A stretch of DNA of 64,000 nucleotides from Paenibacillus aceti. GTDB taxonomy: Bacteria > Bacillota > Bacilli > Paenibacillales > Paenibacillaceae. The notes below the pieces were generated by a model. That model did no database searches and had not been told where the DNA came from. It was given only the letters and a program-made list of their open reading frames with translations. The DNA lies in contig NZ_KZ987724.1 of NCBI RefSeq assembly GCF_003614185.1, positions 540,679 through 604,678 on the forward strand, given 5' to 3'. Position numbers and translations under genes: made by a program. This document shows, in pieces, positions 54,736-63,281 of this stretch. Positions within the stretch are counted from its first letter, which is position 1. Every line of letters begins with the position of its first letter.

Positions 54736-55719
54736 ATGAATCCGGCTTTATTGGCCTTGGAGAATGTGGAGGTTGCCTTTTCCGTTAACGGGAAGAGCTA
54801 TCCAGCATTGCAGGATATCTCCTTTCAGGTAGGGGAGAAGGAAGTAGTAGGCATTGTAGGTGAATCTGGTTGTGGCAAGAGCCTGACTTCATTATCTGTG
54901 ATGGGCTTGCTGCCGGGTACGGCAAAGACGACAAAAGGCCAAATTGTTATGGATGGGCTGGCGGTAAGCGGCTTAACCCCGGAGGCCTGGTGCGAAATCA
55001 GGGGGAAACAAGTCTCCATGATCTTTCAAGACCCCATGACCGCATTAAATCCTCTAGTGCCGATCGGCAAGCAAATTGCTGAGACGCTATTAATACATTC
55101 CGCTGTTACAAAGAAGGAGGCTAAAGAACGGGCACTCGAAATGATGACCAAGGTTGGTCTATCCAGAGTTGAGCAGTTGTATAATGACTACCCTCATCAG
55201 CTCTCCGGCGGGATGCGGCAGAGAGTGATGATTGCCATGGCGTTGATCTGCAATCCACGGCTATTGATCGCTGATGAGCCCACTACGGCACTGGATGTTA
55301 CGATACAGGCCCAGATTCTCCAGCTACTACGTGATATTAATGAAACGATGGGTACAGCGATTATCTTAATCTCTCATGATTTGGGGGTTATTCGCGAGGT
55401 ATGCGATCGGGTTCTGGTCATGTACGCCGGGTATATCGTTGAGGACGCACCGGTGCAGCGTATATTAGAGGAACCGAAGCACCCGTATACGCGCGGCTTG
55501 CTGCACTGTATTCCTGATATCAGCAAGCGGGGACAGCCTCTGTACACGATACCTGGCAGAGTTCCGCCGATTACGGAACGGCCTGGAGGTTGTCCTTTTG
55601 CCGGGCGTTGTGCGCAGGCGATGCCGGAATGCAGGGAGCATGTGCCGCAACTAGAGCAAGTAGTGGAGCAGCATCAAGTTCGCTGCCATCTTTATCCCGG
55701 GGCAGGTGAAGCCGTATGA
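54736..55719 (+). CDS. Oligopeptide-type ABC ATPase (DppD-like)
   Basis: A 327-residue ATPase: Walker [10 protein letters not shown], signature [15 protein letters not shown], Walker [13 protein letters not shown] and switch His in ISHDLG. The C-terminal cysteine-rich [19 protein letters not shown] region is the oligopeptide/dipeptide ATPase extension that can bind an iron-sulfur cluster. GGGGGTGG precedes ATG 54736. Overlaps the next ATPase gene by 4 bases. Confidence 0.93.
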
Positions 55720-56723
55720 CACAGTCTCTACTCCGGGTTGAGGATTTATCGAAGCACTATGAAGTAGCGAGACAGGGACTGCTGGAAGAGAAGAGGTGCG
55801 TAAGGGCGGTAAATGGTGTTTCTTTTGACATCAGAGAAGGTGAAACGTTTGGACTAGTTGGGGAGAGCGGTTGCGGTAAATCTACGACAGGGCAAATGCT
55901 CGTTCATTTAGTGCAGCACACGGGTGGGCAGATCCATTTTGCTGGCAGAGATATTACCAATCTGTCCAAGCATGAGATGAAGGCGCTGCGCAAGGAGCTG
56001 CAAATCGTCTTCCAAGACCCTTATTCTTCGCTTAATCCGAAGAAAAAAATCGGCTGGCTGCTGGAAGAGCCGCTCATCATCCATCAAATCGGCAGCAAGG
56101 CTGAGCGGCAAAAAACCATAAGCGAAGTGCTGGAACAGGTTGGATTGGATCAAAGCCACCTTCAGCGCTATCCTCATGAGCTTAGCGGCGGCCAAAGACA
56201 ACGGGTCGGGATTGCTTCGGCTCTAGTTCTGAACCCTAAATTTATCGTTATAGATGAGGCGGTTTCGGCGCTCGATGTTTCCGTTCAGTCGCAAATCCTG
56301 AATCTGCTGAAGGAGCTGCAGCGGGTGCGCGGCCTAACTTATCTGTTCATCTCACATGACCTGAATGTTGTTCAGTACATGAGTGATCGAGTAGGTGTGA
56401 TGTATTTGGGAAAAATGGTGGAGATTTTCGATGTAGAAGCAGGCGGCGAGCCGCTGCATCCTTATACACGTGCGTTATTTTCGTCGATCCCTCAAGTAGG
56501 AAGCCGCCAGAAGGAACGTATCGTATTGTCTGGAGATGTTCCTAATCCCATTTCTCCGCCGCCCGGTTGCGCTTTCCATCCCAGATGTCCTTTGGCTGTG
56601 GAGCAGTGCCGTCACTCTACCCCTGTACTTCGCAGTCAGGAAGCCGGTCATTACGTTAGTTGTCATTTATATGAGGAGGAAGCAGTTCATGAGATTAGGA
56701 GTCATATCGGATCTGCATGTTGA
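55716..56723 (+). CDS. Oligopeptide-type ABC ATPase (DppF-like)
   Basis: A 335-residue ATPase: Walker [10 protein letters not shown], signature LSGGQRQRVGIASAL, Walker B FIVIDEAVSALD (Ala in place of the usual Pro, a known variant) and switch His in ISHDLN. The C-terminal CAFHPRCPLAVEQCRHSTP extension holds cysteines. Its end overlaps the metallophosphoesterase start by 35 bases. Confidence 0.93.
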   Translation: MTQSLLRVEDLSKHYEVARQGLLEEKRCVRAVNGVSFDIREGETFGLVGESGCGKSTTGQMLVHLVQHTGGQIHFAGRDITNLSKHEMKALRKELQIVFQDPYSSLNPKKKIGWLLEEPLIIHQIGSKAERQKTISEVLEQVGLDQSHLQRYPHELSGGQRQRVGIASALVLNPKFIVIDEAVSALDVSVQSQILNLLKELQRVRGLTYLFISHDLNVVQYMSDRVGVMYLGKMVEIFDVEAGGEPLHPYTRALFSSIPQVGSRQKERIVLSGDVPNPISPPPGCAFHPRCPLAVEQCRHSTPVLRSQEAGHYVSCHLYEEEAVHEIRSHIGSAC

Positions 56724-57501
56724 TCTAAACGAAGTGTCCGGGCAGCCGCTGATTGAGGAGGTATTGCTCGAGGTCGTTGCTGCAAGTGAATTGCAGCATC
56801 TGATCATTGCCGGCGATATCTCTAATGATGTGAACCGAAGCATGGCTGTACTGAGAAGACTGAAGGCTGAATCAGGCATTCCGGTGCTGTTCGTACCGGG
56901 TAACCATGATTATTGGAGCAAGGATAACGGTATAACCGATACTTGGGAGATTTACAGACAATATCAGTCTTATGAAGGCTGTTTGAGTCAGAATCCAATC
57001 CAGCTTGATGACGATTGGGTCGTTATCGGCAATTCCGGCTGGTACGACTATACAATGGGCGAGCCCAAATACAGTTTCGCCGATTTCGAGAAAATGCATG
57101 CTATGGACCGCACCTGGCAGGATAGCATTTACGTGAAGTGGAACATGAGCAATCAGGAGATTCATCGTTACTTCTATCGCCATTTAGAGCAGGAATTGGA
57201 GCGTCATCAGGGCCAAAATATTATTATGGTTACCCATATGCTCACCCACCCTTATTTTAAGGCGCCTGTCGATCATCCGCAGTGGCAGTATTTTAATGCT
57301 TTTCTTGGGAGTAATGAGTATGCTGAACTGTATCATAAATACAAGGTGCGCTACGGGATAATGGGTCATGTTCATTATCGCAAGCGAATGAAGGAACAGG
57401 AGACGGAGATGATCTGCGCTTGTCTTGGTTATCGCAAAGAATGGAGAACGGTGGAAGCGCTGAAGGAAGTTCAGGATTGCTTACAGATTATTTCGATCTA
57501 A
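56689..57501 (+). CDS. Calcineurin-type metallophosphoesterase
   Basis: A 270-residue metallophosphoesterase with the full motif set: GVISDLHVD (D-x-H), IAGDISND (GD), VPGNHDYW (GNHD), MVTHMLTHP and GHVHYRKR (GHxH). No signal peptide. ATG 56689 is chosen because ATGAGGAGGA lies ~9 bases upstream and motif I begins immediately. It overlaps the DppF-like gene by 35 bases, so it is translationally coupled. It probably dephosphorylates the imported compound or a derivative. Confidence 0.9.
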   Translation: MRLGVISDLHVDLNEVSGQPLIEEVLLEVVAASELQHLIIAGDISNDVNRSMAVLRRLKAESGIPVLFVPGNHDYWSKDNGITDTWEIYRQYQSYEGCLSQNPIQLDDDWVVIGNSGWYDYTMGEPKYSFADFEKMHAMDRTWQDSIYVKWNMSNQEIHRYFYRHLEQELERHQGQNIIMVTHMLTHPYFKAPVDHPQWQYFNAFLGSNEYAELYHKYKVRYGIMGHVHYRKRMKEQETEMICACLGYRKEWRTVEALKEVQDCLQIISI

Positions 57502-57608
57502 GAGACACCATAATAAAAGATATATTACAGATAGCCTCTGTTCATCGCTTAAATTAGCGGAGGGGGTGGTCCAAGCCTGCGACTCGATCTTACCATGCCT
57601 AAAAAATC

Positions 57609-57648
57609 AGCTCCTGAAATGTCCTTAAGGCGGTTCAGGAGCTTTTTG
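57609..57648 (+). terminator. Terminator of the nine-gene importer operon
   Basis: AGCTCCTGAA (57609-57618) pairs perfectly with TTCAGGAGCT (57634-57643), then TTTTT. Confidence 0.88.
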
Positions 57649-57695
57649 CATATTAGGGGATTATAAGTATTGCTCAACACTTGTGCGTTACCTTC

Positions 57696-58607
57696 TTAAG
57701 AATATTTCTTCATCATTTCATGCAAATAATTTCGAAAATCTTCAACATAAGTTTTTGGCTCTATTATTTCTAGATTTGTACCGAAGCTTGCTAGAAATTG
57801 AAATCCAATACTGTTTTGAGGAACATGGATTGTTGCCAATAAAAGTTCAGAACTATAGTTTTCAATACTCTTTCGACCATACCTTTCTATGAAGTGATCT
57901 TGTATGCTGGGCGAAATCAACGCTCTTACAGCGACTAGTTCCGGTTGATAACTTGTTTCATGTTCTTGTTCTAACGAATAATCCCTAGGGTTAAATGTTT
58001 TTTCATCTACATGAAACTGATCGATCCTAGATAATTTAAATGTTCTAAATCTCATGCGATGCAAACAGAATCCTTTCAAATACCAACTCGTTTCACTGAA
58101 ATGAAGCTGATAGGGCTCGACCATTCTCTTCGTTATCATGCCATTTTTATCGATATAATCAAATGAAATCAATCTTCTCGCTAATATGGCCTCTTGACAC
58201 ATCTTCAAGATTTGACGAATTTCGGACCGACCCTCCCAATCATAAAATGACAGTTGGATGGAACCTTTCGGGGACAACGGGCTAACCATGGCTTCTATTT
58301 TTTTTATCGTCACTTCAACTTCTTCGCTAATTAGAATTTGTTCCAATCCGCCGAGCGCGGTCAATATATTCTCCAAGTCAGAGCTGCTTAAAAGACGTTT
58401 ATCAACCTTATATTCGTCCATAATACCATAGCCACCATGAACTCCGTTGACAGAATAGATGGGGATATTTGATAAACTCAATGTTTCCATATCACGAAGA
58501 ATCGTTCTTTTGGTAACGTTAAATAACTGTGCGAATTCTTTGGTTGAAACAACATCCTTTTTCAGCAATATCATGATGATGGATATTAATCTCTCAACCT
58601 TTTCCAT
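57696..58607 (-). CDS. WYL-domain transcriptional regulator (YafY-like)
   Basis: A 303-residue regulator. The N-terminal HTH_11 is RLISIIMILLKKDVVSTKEFAQLFNVTKRTILRDMETL. The WYL domain (~residues 140-225) includes LISFDYIDKNG, VEPYQLHFSETSWYLKGFC and FRTFKLSRI. A WCX C-terminus follows. WYL domains bind nucleic acid or nucleotide-type ligands. Divergent from a VOC protein gene, with a palindrome between them. GAAGGAGAAC precedes the ATG. Confidence 0.9.
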   Translation of the reverse strand: MEKVERLISIIMILLKKDVVSTKEFAQLFNVTKRTILRDMETLSLSNIPIYSVNGVHGGYGIMDEYKVDKRLLSSSDLENILTALGGLEQILISEEVEVTIKKIEAMVSPLSPKGSIQLSFYDWEGRSEIRQILKMCQEAILARRLISFDYIDKNGMITKRMVEPYQLHFSETSWYLKGFCLHRMRFRTFKLSRIDQFHVDEKTFNPRDYSLEQEHETSYQPELVAVRALISPSIQDHFIERYGRKSIENYSSELLLATIHVPQNSIGFQFLASFGTNLEIIEPKTYVEDFRNYLHEMMKKYS

Positions 58608-58642
58608 ATGTTCTCCTTCTTTTTTGAACTTTATTTATAAAT

Positions 58643-58662
58643 GGTGACATACATATGTCACC
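58643..58662. promoter_or_regulatory. Palindromic operator between WYL regulator and VOC gene
   Basis: GGTGACAT-ACAT-ATGTCACC: 8-base perfect arms with a 4-base centre in the divergent promoter region. Likely target of the WYL regulator. Confidence 0.65.
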
Positions 58663-58708
58663 TCTTATTCATTATACTACATTTATAACAAGAAGGAGGT
58701 TTTACTTT

Positions 58709-59173
58709 ATGTCAGCTATTGTCTATTTAAACTTTGATGGGGTTGCAGAACAAGCGATTGATTTTTATTCGGAGGCTTTAAATGCAATTGAAGTAAAAAA
58801 AGTTAAATTTAAGGATTTTCCGCAAGATCCAAACTACCCGTTACCGGAAAATGAGTTAAATATGATCATGGAGTCTTCAGTAGAATTTGCAGGCGGGAAA
58901 ATCATGATGTCGGATATTATACCTTCGATGAAGAGTGTAACGGGCGAGTTGGTTAAAGGTAATAATATACTGATTAGTATCGTTAATGATGATAAACAGG
59001 CACTAGAAAAATATTTTTCTAATTTGTCTGTAGGTGGTTATGTTATCATGCCGTTATCCAATACGCCTTGGTCTTCGTGCTTTGGGATGCTGGTCGATAA
59101 GTTCGGAGTTTCCTGGAAGTTTAATAGTGACGCAGATAAGTTTCTAAATAACGTAATTTCCAACAAACAGTAA
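58709..59173 (+). CDS. VOC-family protein (PhnB/YjdN type)
   Basis: A 154-residue glyoxalase-fold protein (MSAIVYLNFDGVAEQAIDFYSEALNA..., GKIMMSDIIPSMK, VIMPLSNTPWSSCFGMLVDKFGVSWKFN). The PhnB/3-demethylubiquinone-methyltransferase-like group; the enzymatic role is unknown. ATG 58709 has AAGAAGGAGG ~9 bases upstream. Paired with the divergent WYL regulator. Confidence 0.85.
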   Translation: MSAIVYLNFDGVAEQAIDFYSEALNAIEVKKVKFKDFPQDPNYPLPENELNMIMESSVEFAGGKIMMSDIIPSMKSVTGELVKGNNILISIVNDDKQALEKYFSNLSVGGYVIMPLSNTPWSSCFGMLVDKFGVSWKFNSDADKFLNNVISNKQ

Positions 59174-59235
59174 CTCATTTTTGCATATCCCTTAGGCGTA
59201 TAAATCTATTCAGAACAGGAGAATGGATTTGATTT

Positions 59236-59409
59236 ATGGAAATCGGAGATCTAATTCCAGTAAAATCGAGAGCAGATTTAAGGATTTGGCTGCAGAACAA
59301 TTTATCGGAGACGGATCTAGCGCAGAGACTGTCTCCCAGGAGCAAAAAAAGTTCAAGGACTGAATTGTACGGTCAATGGAACGATAATGGACGTCTGCTA
59401 GACTATTAA
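59236..59409 (+). pseudogene. Internally deleted YdeI/OmpD-associated family gene
   Basis: A 57-codon frame starting MEIGDLIPVKSRADLRIWLQ resembles the start of YdeI-type proteins (S-R-x-x-L-R-x-W-L-x-x-N). It jumps to RLSPRSKKSSRTELYGQW, like their C-terminal FTPRKKxSxWSELN motif. The central ~100 residues are missing. A relic with an ATG and an AACAGGAG site still in place. The assignment rests on remembered family patterns. Confidence 0.5.
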
Positions 59410-59422
59410 TATAGGCAAGAAT

Positions 59423-59466
59423 AAAAAAACCGTCAAAAGTCTTGATTTTACAAGGTTTTGACGGGT
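59423..59466. terminator. Bidirectional terminator between YdeI relic and L4 paralogue
   Basis: CCGTCAAAA (59430-59438) and TTTTGACGG (59456-59464), with a run of seven A on the left (T on the minus strand). Ends transcription of the L4 paralogue on the minus strand. Confidence 0.8.
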
Positions 59467-59474
59467 TAAAAATG

Positions 59475-60098
59475 TTAAGAGTACATTTCCGTAATCATAT
59501 TGACGGCTTCCTTGGCGATTATTAATTTATCACAATTCAGAACGTTGTATACATTAAGTGAATCTGCTACAGTGGTTTCTACACCAGGAATGTTATTGGC
59601 GCTCTTAAAAACAAAGTTATTTATCATAGGTGTAACAATTAGCACCTTTTTCTCTGCCCCAAGAGCATTAAGCATAGCTACTATAGACTTTGTCCTGTAG
59701 TTATCCAACTTGATTTCATCGACGACAATGAATTCTTTATTCTGTACTTTGCTTGATAAGGCAGATTTTATCGCGAGCCGCTTAACCTTTTTATTGAGTT
59801 TGTAGCTATAGTCGCGAGGTTTAGGAGCAAACACAACTCCTCCACCGCGCCAATGTGGCATACGAATCGAACCTGCTCTAGATTTATCAATTTTATTCTG
59901 CTTATATGGTTTTCTGCCACCGCCCCTAACTTCACCACGTGTTAATGCAGATTGGGTTCCACTGCGATTATTTGCTAGATAATTTAGAACTGCATCATGC
60001 ATAACTGATTCATTGGGAATAATACCAAAAATAGATTCTTCAAGTTCCATTTCCCCAACATGAATACCATCCATGTTAAAAATAGTAACGTTCAACAT
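59475..60098 (-). CDS. rplD: Stand-alone divergent ribosomal protein L4 (RplD) paralogue
   Basis: A 207-residue, full-length L4-like protein, the same length as bacterial L4. Conserved blocks: SVFGI-like ESIFGIIPNESVMHDAVLNY, GEVRGGGRKPYKQ, GSIRMPHWRGGGVVFAPKPRDYSYKLNKKVKRLAIKSALS, NNIPGVET. The usual loop tip WRQKGTGRARQG is YKQNKIDKSRAG here (residues 65-76), so the KGTGRA segment lining the exit tunnel near the macrolide site is replaced. It is not in the S10 ribosomal operon: neighbours are a YdeI relic and a CD3324-like gene. CTGGAGG lies 8 bases before the ATG. A 30-codon leader ORF precedes it. It could be an inducible, drug-tolerant L4. Confidence 0.9.
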   Translation of the reverse strand: MLNVTIFNMDGIHVGEMELEESIFGIIPNESVMHDAVLNYLANNRSGTQSALTRGEVRGGGRKPYKQNKIDKSRAGSIRMPHWRGGGVVFAPKPRDYSYKLNKKVKRLAIKSALSSKVQNKEFIVVDEIKLDNYRTKSIVAMLNALGAEKKVLIVTPMINNFVFKSANNIPGVETTVADSLNVYNVLNCDKLIIAKEAVNMITEMYS

Positions 60099-60124
60099 TA
60101 TTCTTTCCTCCAGATCCTAAACTT

Positions 60125-60217
60125 TCAGGATGTTGGTACCCACATCCAAAGTAAAAACTTCATTGCATTAGAAAAGTTGTTGATTAATGTTCTTTGTATA
60201 TTTACAATAGCATCCAT
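60125..60217 (-). CDS. 30-codon leader ORF upstream of the L4 paralogue
   Basis: Encodes MDAIVNIQRTLINNFSNAMK followed by FLLWMWVPTS and stop. It has an excellent CGGAGG site (60226-60231) 8 bases before its ATG, and ends 26 bases before the L4 start. The end of the ORF can form GGATGT/ACATCC, which competes with pairing of CCAxxATCC to GGATxTGG next to the L4 ribosome binding site. This matches the logic of ribosome-stalling leader peptides. It is too short for routine gene calling; expression is unproven. Confidence 0.6.
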   Translation of the reverse strand: MDAIVNIQRTLINNFSNAMKFLLWMWVPTS

Positions 60218-60344
60218 TATATTAACCTCCGTTTGTCCTGCTACATTTTAGAAGAACCGCTAGTAATTAAGGTAACAGATAGAAATCACATAAACTATAC
60301 ACAAAACGGCTCTGTAATGTTTGGTATAACCTGCATCAGGGGAC

Positions 60345-60382
60345 AAAAAAAGATGGTCCCGTGTGAGTACAGGGATCATCTT
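60345..60382 (-). terminator. Terminator of the CD3324-like gene
   Basis: On the minus strand AAGATGATCCC pairs with GGGACCATCTT (one mismatch) followed by seven T. It separates the CD3324-like gene from the leader/L4 transcript, whose promoter should lie in 60218-60344; I see no strong consensus boxes there. Confidence 0.8.
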
Positions 60383-60419: not shown

Positions 60420-60683
60420 TTATTTGTTATAAATTATTTTTCTGATAGCATAAACAGAAAGGCAGTAAGATTCTGCAAGTTCCTGAATCGAATTACCAGA
60501 ATTATATGCTTGTATTATTTCACTATTTCTCCTATCAATCTCTTTACGAAAACCGGATAATTCTCCCCAATTTTTATGTTGATCTTTAATTGCCGGAATG
60601 TAGATGTATTCACCTTGTATAAAATCTTGCAATTTTTCAACCAATTCTTTTGGGAGAATGTCATTAGCGTTGATATACCTCAT
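60420..60683 (-). CDS. CD3324-family protein (small helix-turn-helix)
   Basis: An 87-residue protein: MRYINANDILPKELVEKLQD, GEYIYIPA, NWGELSGFRKEIDRRNSEII, then an HTH-like IQELAESYCLSVYAIRKIIY. This pattern matches the CD3324 family (Mor-like DNA-binding) as I remember it. AAGGAGTGAG lies 8-9 bases before the ATG. Single gene with its own terminator; target unknown. Confidence 0.8.
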   Translation of the reverse strand: MRYINANDILPKELVEKLQDFIQGEYIYIPAIKDQHKNWGELSGFRKEIDRRNSEIIQAYNSGNSIQELAESYCLSVYAIRKIIYNK

Positions 60684-60750: not shown

Positions 60751-60792
60751 ATTCCATGCAAATATCACCAAATATCTGTCTTTGCATGGAAT
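60751..60792. repeat. 12-bp perfect inverted repeat upstream of the CD3324-like gene
   Basis: ATTCCATGCAAA (60751-60762) and TTTGCATGGAAT (60781-60792), 18 bases apart, ~70 bases before the CD3324-like start. No T-run. Possible operator or mRNA hairpin. Confidence 0.65.
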
Positions 60793-60944
60793 TGAACATG
60801 GGTTATAGTAATATTCTTACGAGACATAATCATTCTCCCACTATAAATTAATGTTTTCTTTCATTTGCTCACGTTTTCTTAGAATCTCAAACACGATGTT
60901 CTCAAGAGATGGGGATATCATGCTGTTATGACATATTTTTCTCG

Positions 60945-61232: not shown

Positions 61233-62528
61233 TTAAGCAACCATCTGTAGCTGAGACTGGCGTACCGGTCCCAATACGTCATTTGCATTGTAGCGTATCT
61301 GTTTTGTTCCCAACGTATGCAATACTCGAATGAGTTTTCCACATAAGGCTACAATAGATTGTTTCTTCTTTAGCGGGTTCTGGGCTCGTTTCGTGTAATA
61401 GTGATGCAGCGCTTTAAATTCTGTATTTTTTGCCACCATGGGCATCATCGCACGGAACAGTAAAGCTCGAAGTCGAGACCGTCCCCGTTTGGTAATCGTG
61501 GACTTCCCTTTCTTCTTCCCAGAACTGTTCTCCCTTAGATTAAAGCCCGCAAGCCGTATAATCTGCTGACTATGATTATATCCTTTGAGATCGCCTACCT
61601 CGGCCAGAAATCCAGCCAATGTTACGACTCCAACCCCAGGAACCGTTAGCATTTCTTCCGAACCAGGGATCTGTTCAAGCAGTTCTACCACCTGTCTCAT
61701 GATGTCGTCTATCTGCCGAGTAAACAAAGTATGCTGCTCCAGCAAGTTCTTCAATTCAATCTTGGCTGCCATTAAACCCTCTGTGAGGCCGATAGAGTCC
61801 TGAGCTGCTTGAACCAGTTTCTCTGCTCGCTTCATGCCAACCGCCCGTTTAACCTCTTGTTTCCACCGTTTCAAAACTGTGAAAGCTCCAAGTGTTACAA
61901 TTTCTTGCGGGGTAGGAAATTCTGCAAGCGTGATGAGAGAGGCTTTTCCTTCCCAGTCAGCAAACACGTTTTGATATTCAGGAAAGAACCGGTCGAGCCA
62001 ATTTTGAATCCGTCTTTGGACTTGACCCAGGTTTAACATAACCTTTTCTCGATGATTCATGAGGATGCGTAAATCCGCATAAACGCTCTTTGGAAGCCGG
62101 GGCTCCGAATAATGGCCGTTACGAACGAGATCTGCAATAACCTTGGCATCCTTGTAGTCGTTTTTCGTTGGTGAATTGTCTTCAAGTTCTTTACTCTTGC
62201 TAACATGATGAGGGTTTACGATAACTAGTTTAATGCCCTCATGCTGTAGAAACTCAGCCAGGGTAAACCAGTAGTGTCCGGTTGGTTCGATGCCGAAGAT
62301 GACGTCAGTCTTGGCATGTTGCCGTTGAAGTTCCTTCATCCACGATACTAGTTTTAACAAACCTGAACGGTCGTTTTTAAATACACAATCTTTTCCCAAT
62401 TCGATCCCACGAAAATCGATCCCGCGTGCTACATGGGTTTCTTTGGCGATGTCTGCACCGATAACCAGTGTATTTTCGGTAATTTGTTCAATACGTTGAT
62501 TCTGTTTCTTAGATTGTTTATACTTCAT
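61233..62528 (-). CDS. IS110-family DEDD recombinase/transposase
   Basis: A 431-residue enzyme. RuvC-like DEDD residues: Asp26 (VIGADIAKETH), Glu81 (FGIEPTGHYW), Asp124 and Asp127 (KNDYKDAKV). A coiled-coil middle leads to the C-terminal Transposase_20 domain (IPGSEEMLTVPGVGVVTLAG, RLAGFNLRENSSGKKKG, RGRSRLRALLFRAMM) with the reactive serine region. It is full length and undamaged. GAAGGAGGAC precedes the ATG. It acts with a bridge RNA in characterised relatives. Confidence 0.95.
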   Translation of the reverse strand: MKYKQSKKQNQRIEQITENTLVIGADIAKETHVARGIDFRGIELGKDCVFKNDRSGLLKLVSWMKELQRQHAKTDVIFGIEPTGHYWFTLAEFLQHEGIKLVIVNPHHVSKSKELEDNSPTKNDYKDAKVIADLVRNGHYSEPRLPKSVYADLRILMNHREKVMLNLGQVQRRIQNWLDRFFPEYQNVFADWEGKASLITLAEFPTPQEIVTLGAFTVLKRWKQEVKRAVGMKRAEKLVQAAQDSIGLTEGLMAAKIELKNLLEQHTLFTRQIDDIMRQVVELLEQIPGSEEMLTVPGVGVVTLAGFLAEVGDLKGYNHSQQIIRLAGFNLRENSSGKKKGKSTITKRGRSRLRALLFRAMMPMVAKNTEFKALHHYYTKRAQNPLKKKQSIVALCGKLIRVLHTLGTKQIRYNANDVLGPVRQSQLQMVA

Positions 62529-62633: not shown

Positions 62634-63281
62634 ATGGCTCCTATAGTTTTTGTTTTCGGTATGTTTGAGCATACCGAAAAACTGGATACCATTTTATATC
62701 TGCATAAAGGCATACAAAAAGCCGGATATAAGGTAAAAACGATTCTTACCCGGAAAAATGAAACAGATGCTGAGGAGTTCCTTTCCTTCCCTAGTTTCAT
62801 GTATGAGAAGCAGTATTCCGATACGGACAAGGTTTTCTTTTTCAACCATTTCATAAGAAGAATAGAATTGGAAGAGAAACCAGACATCATTGTGATAGGC
62901 CTGCCAGGTGAAATGATGCCACTGGATGAAAAGCATAACGGGAATTTTGGAATATTTCCTTATCTTATTTCTAATGCTGTTCATTGTGATTATGCCGTTA
63001 TGAAATTATTCCATAATTTTTATGATAATACCTTTGCGGATAAGATGCAGGAAATAGTAAGGAGCAAGTTTGAAATTGATATTAACGCTTTTGTAGTGTC
63101 CAACAGTATATTGGATGTTACCAGTGTTTCAACGGCTACTCTTAGGTTTTATGAATCCGAGAAAAGGCCTACTGATTTACCACAAAATTATTACTTTAAT
63201 CATTTCGATGGTACTGGTGAGTCTTTGTGCAAGCATCTTATCAATACTTTACAGATGTTTGGAAATTACAGAACAGTCTAA
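62634..63281 (+). CDS. TIGR04066-like peptide maturation protein, 5'-truncated
   Basis: A 215-residue protein: MAPIVFVFGMFEHTEKLDTI, AEEFLSFPSFMYEKQYSDTDKVFFFNHFIRRIELEEKPDIIVIGLPGEMMPLDEKHNGNFGIFPYLISNAV. I recognise it as the C-terminal part of the TIGR04066 family (Clo7bot-type peptide maturation systems of clostridia). Family members as I recall are longer, with an extra N-terminal domain. The frame is closed by TAA at 62619, right at the IS110 edge, so the element probably removed the 5' part. The next gene, an acyl-carrier-related protein, supports the assignment. Confidence 0.65.
   Translation: MAPIVFVFGMFEHTEKLDTILYLHKGIQKAGYKVKTILTRKNETDAEEFLSFPSFMYEKQYSDTDKVFFFNHFIRRIELEEKPDIIVIGLPGEMMPLDEKHNGNFGIFPYLISNAVHCDYAVMKLFHNFYDNTFADKMQEIVRSKFEIDINAFVVSNSILDVTSVSTATLRFYESEKRPTDLPQNYYFNHFDGTGESLCKHLINTLQMFGNYRTV

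Follow-up and report, generated by a model that had tools for sequence, protein, structure and literature searches.

Why would a bacterium keep, outside its ribosomal protein operon, a second full-length gene for ribosomal protein L4 in which the tip of the exit-tunnel loop has been rewritten? The question is raised by a stretch of 64,000 nucleotides from Paenibacillus aceti (hereafter the window, to which positions refer unless a genome or locus is named), in which a sequence-only reading had noticed such a gene and had proposed that it underlies a ribosome swap tolerating a tunnel-binding drug or a self-made peptide.

A second, full-length L4 gene

The gene, here called L4p, occupies 59475..60098 on the minus strand, starts with ATG and encodes a protein of 207 aa that was assigned to the uL4 family from its open reading frame and from family models. 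It passed the cut-offs of both bacterial L4 models (TIGR03953, 226.9 bits against 130.1; PF00573, 224.4 bits against 25.8), and the report of a full-length L4 outside the ribosomal operon was thereby borne out. Its Shine-Dalgarno site and start, CTGGAGGAAAGAATAATG, were read directly at 60096..60113 (minus strand), and direct reading also gave, 3' of the gene at 59420..59464 on the same strand, a terminator-like inverted repeat with a T run that was missed by the terminator scan. The genome of the window's strain has one further L4 match, 3 Mb off (G000:C1:3643418-3643981), which we designate the canonical rplD because genes for L3, L23 and L2 adjoin it; the normal copy expected elsewhere in the genome is thus present, and L4p is not the sole L4. 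The two proteins align without gaps at 50% identity, and L4p is without two marks of canonical rplD, namely location in the S10 operon and the KGTGRAR tip. The zone around the gene had been described as IS-rich, which holds for one IS110 transposase gene upstream of L4p; over 55000-59302, on the other hand, the window matches a congener collinearly, with 95.5% identity.

The fold of L4p was predicted from an input alignment that held L4p rows and the genome's own L4, and is hence not independent of sequence; the model had a pLDDT of 76.9, falling below 50 in loop 46-96. Its five best PDB matches were chains of ribosome entries aligned over their length (TM 0.73-0.76, rmsd 7.5-8.2), and L4 chains were the best among the structural matches.

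The rewritten loop tip

In the alignment, L4p residues 68-74, encoded at 59877..59897 (minus strand), read NKIDKSR opposite the KGTGRAR of canonical L4, as had been noticed from the letters. The pattern NKI[DN][KR]SR was present in all 20 intact L4p sequences, with positions 68, 69, 70, 73 and 74 invariant, position 71 being D in 17 and N in 3, and position 72 being K in 13 and R in 7. Excluded from these 20, which also served for the dN/dS counts, were the truncated or broken copies of L045, L052 and L058, and L060 had been dropped beforehand as the same place as L040. Conversely, KGTGRAR was found at all seven tip positions in 28/28 canonical L4s examined from the genus, which comprised those of 27 of the 38 genus genomes without L4p (returned as loci) and the own copy of the window's genome. 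Given these counts and the presence of L4p in 3/41 genus genomes, the loop change is not a standard feature of the genus.

The difference between L4p and canonical L4 is not limited to the tip, since 41 of the 207 columns were fixed (90% or more) to different residues, including 4 of the 7 tip columns and 13 columns in residues 46-96; canonical W65 is replaced by Y. The loop motifs GGGRKP and RGGG are largely kept. The view that the rest of the fold is conserved therefore stands for the predicted fold, but less so for the sequence.

Selection, phylogeny and distribution of L4p

The dN/dS of the window's L4p was 0.059 against its nearest relative, G011, and 0.049 against L033. For the family the median was 0.13 (121 usable of 190 pairs, the other 69 having a dS of 1.5 or more, or no estimate), compared with 0.05 for canonical L4 (377 pairs). 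L4p is under purifying selection and is kept less strictly than housekeeping L4. The dN/dS of the window's L4p led us to reject a pseudogene there, and this copy also has the shortest protein branch of the L4p family (0.004).

L4p was identified in 19/395 genomes of Paenibacillaceae and in 3/26 of Brevibacillus, the genus of L033. A scan of genome contigs gave 26 loci, of which 21 were L4p or fragments of it (in Paenibacillus, Brevibacillus, Cohnella and one record named Bacillus), and the other 5 were L4s of Actinomycetota and Planctomycetota with an ordinary KGTGRAR tip. Many of the loci L033-L052 are the same records as loci with G handles, so that the loci are not independent of the 395-genome sample. 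Second L4s were found not to be common in Bacilli, as two matches were read only for G000, G781 and G505 among 398 genomes of the class; the second L4 of G781 (the Brevibacillus of L036) is the same L4p, and the G505 pair is one canonical L4 read over two frames. That canonical L4 (G505:C76:23884-24445, L171) is frame-split just past the tip, which reflects either an error of sequencing or an oddity within an essential gene.

In the tree, the L4p sequences formed one clade (support 100/99), whose long stem joins outside the sampled canonical Bacilli at a point where, as the tool warned, long branches meet. A recent duplication of the host rplD was rejected, as this single clade is far from canonical Paenibacillus L4. 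The window's L4p and the Brevibacillus L4p of L036 share 90% identity, compared with 71% for the canonical L4s of these two genomes, a difference that points to the spread of L4p by horizontal transfer. As for the vehicle, a plasmid gene was rejected on the basis that all 62 matches in plasmid records were below 60% identity, with 24 of the 30 listed annotated as L4 or rplD, and a phage gene on the basis that all 14 matches in phage records were below 60% identity and that viral contigs gave none. Compared with uL4 (rplD), L4p is alike in its full length, its passing of the family models, its best structural matches and its largely kept tip-flanking loop motifs, and differs in its 50% identity to the L4 of its host, its location outside the S10 operon, its NKI[DN][KR]SR tip and its long stem branch outside the sampled canonical Bacilli.

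Linkage of L4p to cfr

Searching for L4 paralogues without KGTGRAR and mapping their neighbours, as had been suggested, revealed that cfr adjoins L4p in most relatives, where the usual order is cfr, a CD3324-family gene and L4p, all on one strand and with L4p last. Cfr was called with the TIGR04432 equivalog model at a cut-off of 550 bits; the products of three cassette cfr genes that were checked scored 617, 621 and 638 bits, and Cfr scores across the 395 genomes were 550.7-645 bits. Among these Paenibacillaceae genomes Cfr was present in 17/19 with L4p and in 55/376 without it (Fisher p 6e-12, uncorrected for kinship), and in 16/19 L4p genomes cfr lay 133-1344 bp upstream of L4p on the same strand. 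The exceptions were G218 (the L046 record), in which cfr is adjacent to L4p but split over two frames; G011, in which cfr occurs only at another place and is 57% like the cassette type; and the window's genome, which has L4p without any Cfr. All three L4p genomes of Brevibacillus have Cfr, with cfr adjacent in one and 26-27 kb off on the same contig in two, and the host of L050 has cfr on a different contig from L4p. Since 55 of the 72 Cfr genomes in the Paenibacillaceae sample are without L4p, the paralogue is an optional addition to cfr.

The CD3324-family gene was rejected as an essential part of the cassette because it is missing from L042 (the same as the L078 record). Counted by recurrence, no neighbour besides cfr, the CD3324-family gene and a small opposite-strand ORF (9 loci) was present in more than 6/24 loci. 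Intact L4p is also not universal in the cassette, as the gene is broken in L052 (the same as the L090 record), L058 and L089 and truncated in L045, and the L4 half seems to have been lost repeatedly. Each of these broken or truncated copies adjoins a cfr match.

Set against the Cfr and Cfr-like 23S A2503-C8 methyltransferases of Bacillales, such as ClPa, the partner gene of L4p passes TIGR04432 in most loci. The term "ribosomal protein" is absent from PMC11047308 and PMC5155152, both papers on cfr of Paenibacillaceae. The description of the window's L4 as an orphan needs changing, for in relatives the gene is part of a cfr-CD3324-L4p cassette, and in the window it belongs to a remnant of one.

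The window's locus as a cassette remnant

The L4p of the window belongs to what is left of a cassette, of which only the CD3324-family gene and L4p remain. The former (60420..60683, minus strand) encodes a small Mor/HTH-like protein of 87 aa (NF040785, 114.2 bits against a cut-off of 65; PF08765, 27 against 24.9). The gene is accompanied by a leader ORF of its own and by a perfect inverted repeat of 12 bp, and in relatives it lies between cfr and L4p. The repeat, ATTCCATGCAAA...TTTGCATGGAAT, was read directly at 60751..60792 (minus strand), over the end of that leader (leader B, below). Between the CD3324-family gene and the L4p unit, the terminator scan placed a terminator-like hairpin at 60345..60382 (minus strand); the scan gave two terminator-like sites in the region compared with a shuffle mean of 0.8, which is weak alone, and a sequence like that of the hairpin was seen by eye in L034, L036 and L041. 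A sigma-70 promoter scan found 5 sites where 6.3 were expected.

Homology to the cassettes of six related loci extends from L4p as far as leader B, at whose start (60838-60861) it ends, and the IS110 transposase gene assigned by family models lies upstream of the remnant at 61233..62528 (minus strand). When the window was searched in translation with one Cfr, no trace of cfr emerged, and no Cfr was found in its genome, which gave only two TIGR04432 matches, at 273 and 235 bits against the cut-off of 550. Both of these (G000:C1:2108638 and C1:4056502) are RlmN-like by score, and each of the 41 genus genomes has at least two TIGR04432 matches. With no Cfr in the genome, the partnership of L4p and Cfr is absent from the very strain in which L4p was first noticed, and our finding is less certain for that strain. 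Just beyond the IS110 gene, at 62634-63281 (plus strand), there is a fragment matching positions 148-318 of the 361 in TIGR04066 (175.9 bits, cut-off 200), a family of peptide-maturation proteins from natural-product systems; the part of the family before position 148 was not seen.

Leader ORFs and attenuation

In most loci, short leader ORFs with Shine-Dalgarno sites precede each of the cassette genes. In the window, pattern searches identified leader ORF C, MDAIVNIQRTLINNFSNAMKFLLWMWVPTS, before L4p at 60125..60217 (minus strand), of which the first seven or so codons are kept among relatives, together with its strong Shine-Dalgarno site, ACGGAGGTT, at 60224..60232 (minus strand), and leader ORF B, MSRKNITITHVQFHAKTDIW, before the CD3324-family gene at 60765..60827 (minus strand), with an alternative start two codons upstream. 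Leader B was present in 11/21 loci by pattern and in 6 more by eye, and was absent in four.

Leader C was found by pattern search in 17/22 loci and was not found in 5/22. Its residues follow M-[DN]-[AVE]-I-V-[ND]-[IT], with I4 and V5 in 17/17 and a GTG start in one locus. Silent third-position changes occur at codons 3, 4 and 5, alanine 3 being encoded by four codons and isoleucine 4 by two, and the frame is lost past about codon 9 through insertions and deletions. Entropies at codon positions 1/2/3 were 0.20/0.17/0.58 bits over codons 2-6, values that are partly built in because the search pattern fixes parts of codons 1-6, and 0.32/0.57/0.65 bits over codons 2-9, where the near-equal second and third values limit the third-position signal to the first codons of the leader. 

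Leader C opens (MDAIVNI...) in a way that resembles many of the leaders of cfr (MFEVVN, MIEVVD). Across Paenibacillaceae and Brevibacillus, cfr is preceded by a conserved leader some 34-47 codons long. Among 18 cassette loci, the exact block M-x-E-[IV]-V-[ND] was present in 10 and was shifted by one or two residues in 7, and in the remaining locus, L044, no cfr leader was found in the stretch read; similar blocks precede most of the other listed cfr genes. When 52 distinct regions upstream of cfr (for example, L034 5833-6052) were searched with simple patterns and no shuffle control, a CTCC...GGAG hairpin over the cfr start site was found in 50. The same kind of search gave an upstream CCGG[AG] stretch that could pair with the CTCCGG arm in 49/52, a GTGAAC-type repeat in 40/52 and an intrinsic terminator pattern in 11/52. 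Judged from these patterns, the upstream leader and hairpin look like a general cfr attenuator.

RNAalifold gave no conserved attenuator fold at leader C of the main clade (-3.9 kcal/mol over 12 sequences), and the fold of the region upstream of L4p had a z of -0.93; in clade 2 the consensus fold at leader C was -15.2 kcal/mol (n=5). No known RNA family scored above its gathering score at the leaders of the window stretch and L034. In view of the fact that the main clade yielded no convincing attenuator fold for L4p, control of the gene by translation of its leader is a lead rather than a demonstration. 

A search of 41 genomes with the leader-opening pattern gave 12 places, compared with 8 for the reversed control. 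Half of these 12 are leaders, three belonging to cfr (in G006, G013 and G034) and three to L4p (in G000, G011 and G034). Another five lie at or in the starts of longer ORFs (414, 414, 173, 91 and 91 codons), and the last, an ORF of 13 codons, precedes an apparent metE. As a test the pattern is insensitive, having missed the cfr leaders in four of seven cfr genomes; at this sensitivity, the search shows that the motif with such spacing is apparently not found before other short ORFs of the 41 genomes, save the 13-codon one.

Leader-peptide attenuation of the erm/cat type supplies a general scheme with which the cassette can be compared, and the region before cfr is laid out in the erm manner. 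The likeness lies in a short ORF with a Shine-Dalgarno site before each gene in most loci and in the hairpin at the cfr start site; L4p differs in that its main clade gave no conserved fold. Under the context rule, an alanine such as residue 3 of leader C would presumably suit arrest by chloramphenicol or linezolid.

Clinical precedent and related systems

The target of Cfr, A2503, we take to be at the tunnel entrance, and the L4 tip to be part of the constriction beyond it. 

Clinical isolates that combine cfr with L4 changes have been described. PMC13041314 describes two Finegoldia isolates that carried both cfr(C) and L4 G71D and showed linezolid MICs > 256 mg/L; for a third, which had cfr(C) but an unmutated L4, the MIC was 8 mg/L, and the isolates are not isogenic. 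A review (PMC4036669) lists L4 K68N, as well as tip deletions and insertions, for linezolid resistance in staphylococci and pneumococci; it states E. coli numbering, yet K68 coincides with the tip lysine only under our numbering of L4p. In this numbering, residue 68 of L4p is N and residue 71 is D or N; by number, these would be the residues named for linezolid resistance. L4p thus shares residues 68 and 71, as numbered, with the clinical changes (K68N, G71D and tip deletions or insertions, with or without cfr), but in those cases it is the single rplD that is mutated, whereas L4p is a separate, conserved gene that is spreading between genera.

A second precedent is TclQ, a paralogue of ribosomal protein L11, which is presumed to give immunity to micrococcin P1 by replacing the native copy (PMC12724294). 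Like TclQ and TclT (L11 paralogues of micrococcin and thiocillin immunity, altered at the drug site), L4p is a ribosomal protein paralogue; it differs from them in the protein and site concerned, in being linked to cfr and in that the recurrence of neighbours showed no shared biosynthetic cluster. The literature searched, outside which most subscription journals lay, gave no dedicated, spreading, cfr-tied L4 paralogue and no paper on an L4 paralogue at all, in agreement with the earlier remark that no system of this kind had been described. The kind as such is already known, however, given that L11 replacement has been proposed for TclQ and that L4 mutation and Cfr are known routes to resistance.

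Proposed role of L4p and its alternatives

Our preferred explanation, which we hold to be somewhat better than an even bet, is that L4p serves as a spare uL4, induced by drugs and, usually alongside Cfr, remodelling the tunnel constriction. What the sequences show is the paralogue with its fixed tip, its purifying selection, the cfr linkage of relatives and the leader ORFs; the induction, the incorporation into ribosomes, the resistance and the drug are what we infer. An inhibitor of the PTC or tunnel entrance would stall a ribosome on leader C, and the stalling would open expression of the L4p gene downstream. New 50S subunits would be assembled with L4p replacing L4, and the tip changes K68N, G69K, T70I, G71D/N and A73S, in part R72K, plus W65Y, would reshape the tunnel constriction and so lower the binding or action of the drug. 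In most hosts L4p would act together with Cfr, which methylates A2503 and has a leader of its own. The linkage to cfr, the conserved leader ORFs and the clinical isolates with cfr and L4 changes all support the core of the sequence-only reading, that an accessory L4 allows a ribosome swap tolerating a tunnel-binding drug. Macrolides, by contrast, are no longer the first candidates, because a Cfr partner directs attention to drugs of the PTC and tunnel entrance, namely phenicols, lincosamides, oxazolidinones, pleuromutilins and streptogramin A. More tentatively, and with rather less than even confidence, we speculate that Bacillales have a mobile cassette in which two drug-sensed leaders would co-switch a methyltransferase of the tunnel nucleotide A2503 and a replacement L4, the tip of which would rebuild the protein wall next to it, to give a specialised, drug-proof ribosome, and of which the L4 half may last and function alone, as it would in the window's genome.

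The tight linkage of L4p to cfr would also be expected if L4p conferred no resistance of its own and instead compensated for Cfr, restoring function (sensing of stalling, peptidyl transfer or assembly) to ribosomes with C8-methylated A2503. This we judge to be unlikely, though the strongest of the alternatives, since the window's genome keeps L4p without Cfr and on the shortest branch of the family (0.004), with a dN/dS of 0.059 against G011 (which, being pairwise, gives no date for that loss of cfr), and since 55/72 Cfr genomes of Paenibacillaceae manage without L4p. The several loci with a broken or truncated L4p are what one would see if a foreign L4 were a passenger on the cassette without a selected role, or a simple stress spare; a family-wide dN/dS well below 1 and the fixation of the unusual tip make such a passenger highly improbable. 

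In E. coli, L4 has a second role in repressing its own operon, and the position of L4p in a cassette that also has leaders and encodes a small HTH-like protein could suit an RNA-binding regulator that controls the cassette or the S10 operon and does not enter ribosomes. The distinguishing changes of L4p nevertheless include the tunnel tip, and GGGRKP and RGGG are largely kept, which suits entry into ribosomes, so that we attach little weight to a purely regulatory role. The peptide-maturation gene fragment 2.5 kb away is compatible with immunity to a self-made tunnel peptide or antibiotic, similar to that of TclQ for micrococcin P1. Ribosomal protein paralogues are presumed immunity genes (PMC12724294) and provide a precedent. 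Against self-immunity, besides cfr, the CD3324-family gene and the small opposite-strand ORF, the neighbours of L4p recur in no more than 6/24 loci; the self-made peptide of the sequence-only reading thus finds no support in this recurrence, and we consider it a very poor prospect.

Implications

The finding gains interest from the fact that in relatives L4p is one part of a resistance cassette. If our preferred explanation is true, drug-induced use of L4p would be, within the literature searched, the first described resistance by a swap of the tunnel protein L4 and an evolved counterpart of the clinical mutational route that joins cfr to an L4 change. Surveys directed at cfr only would miss half of the locus, and conditional, specialised bacterial ribosomes would become directly testable in a Gram-positive host.
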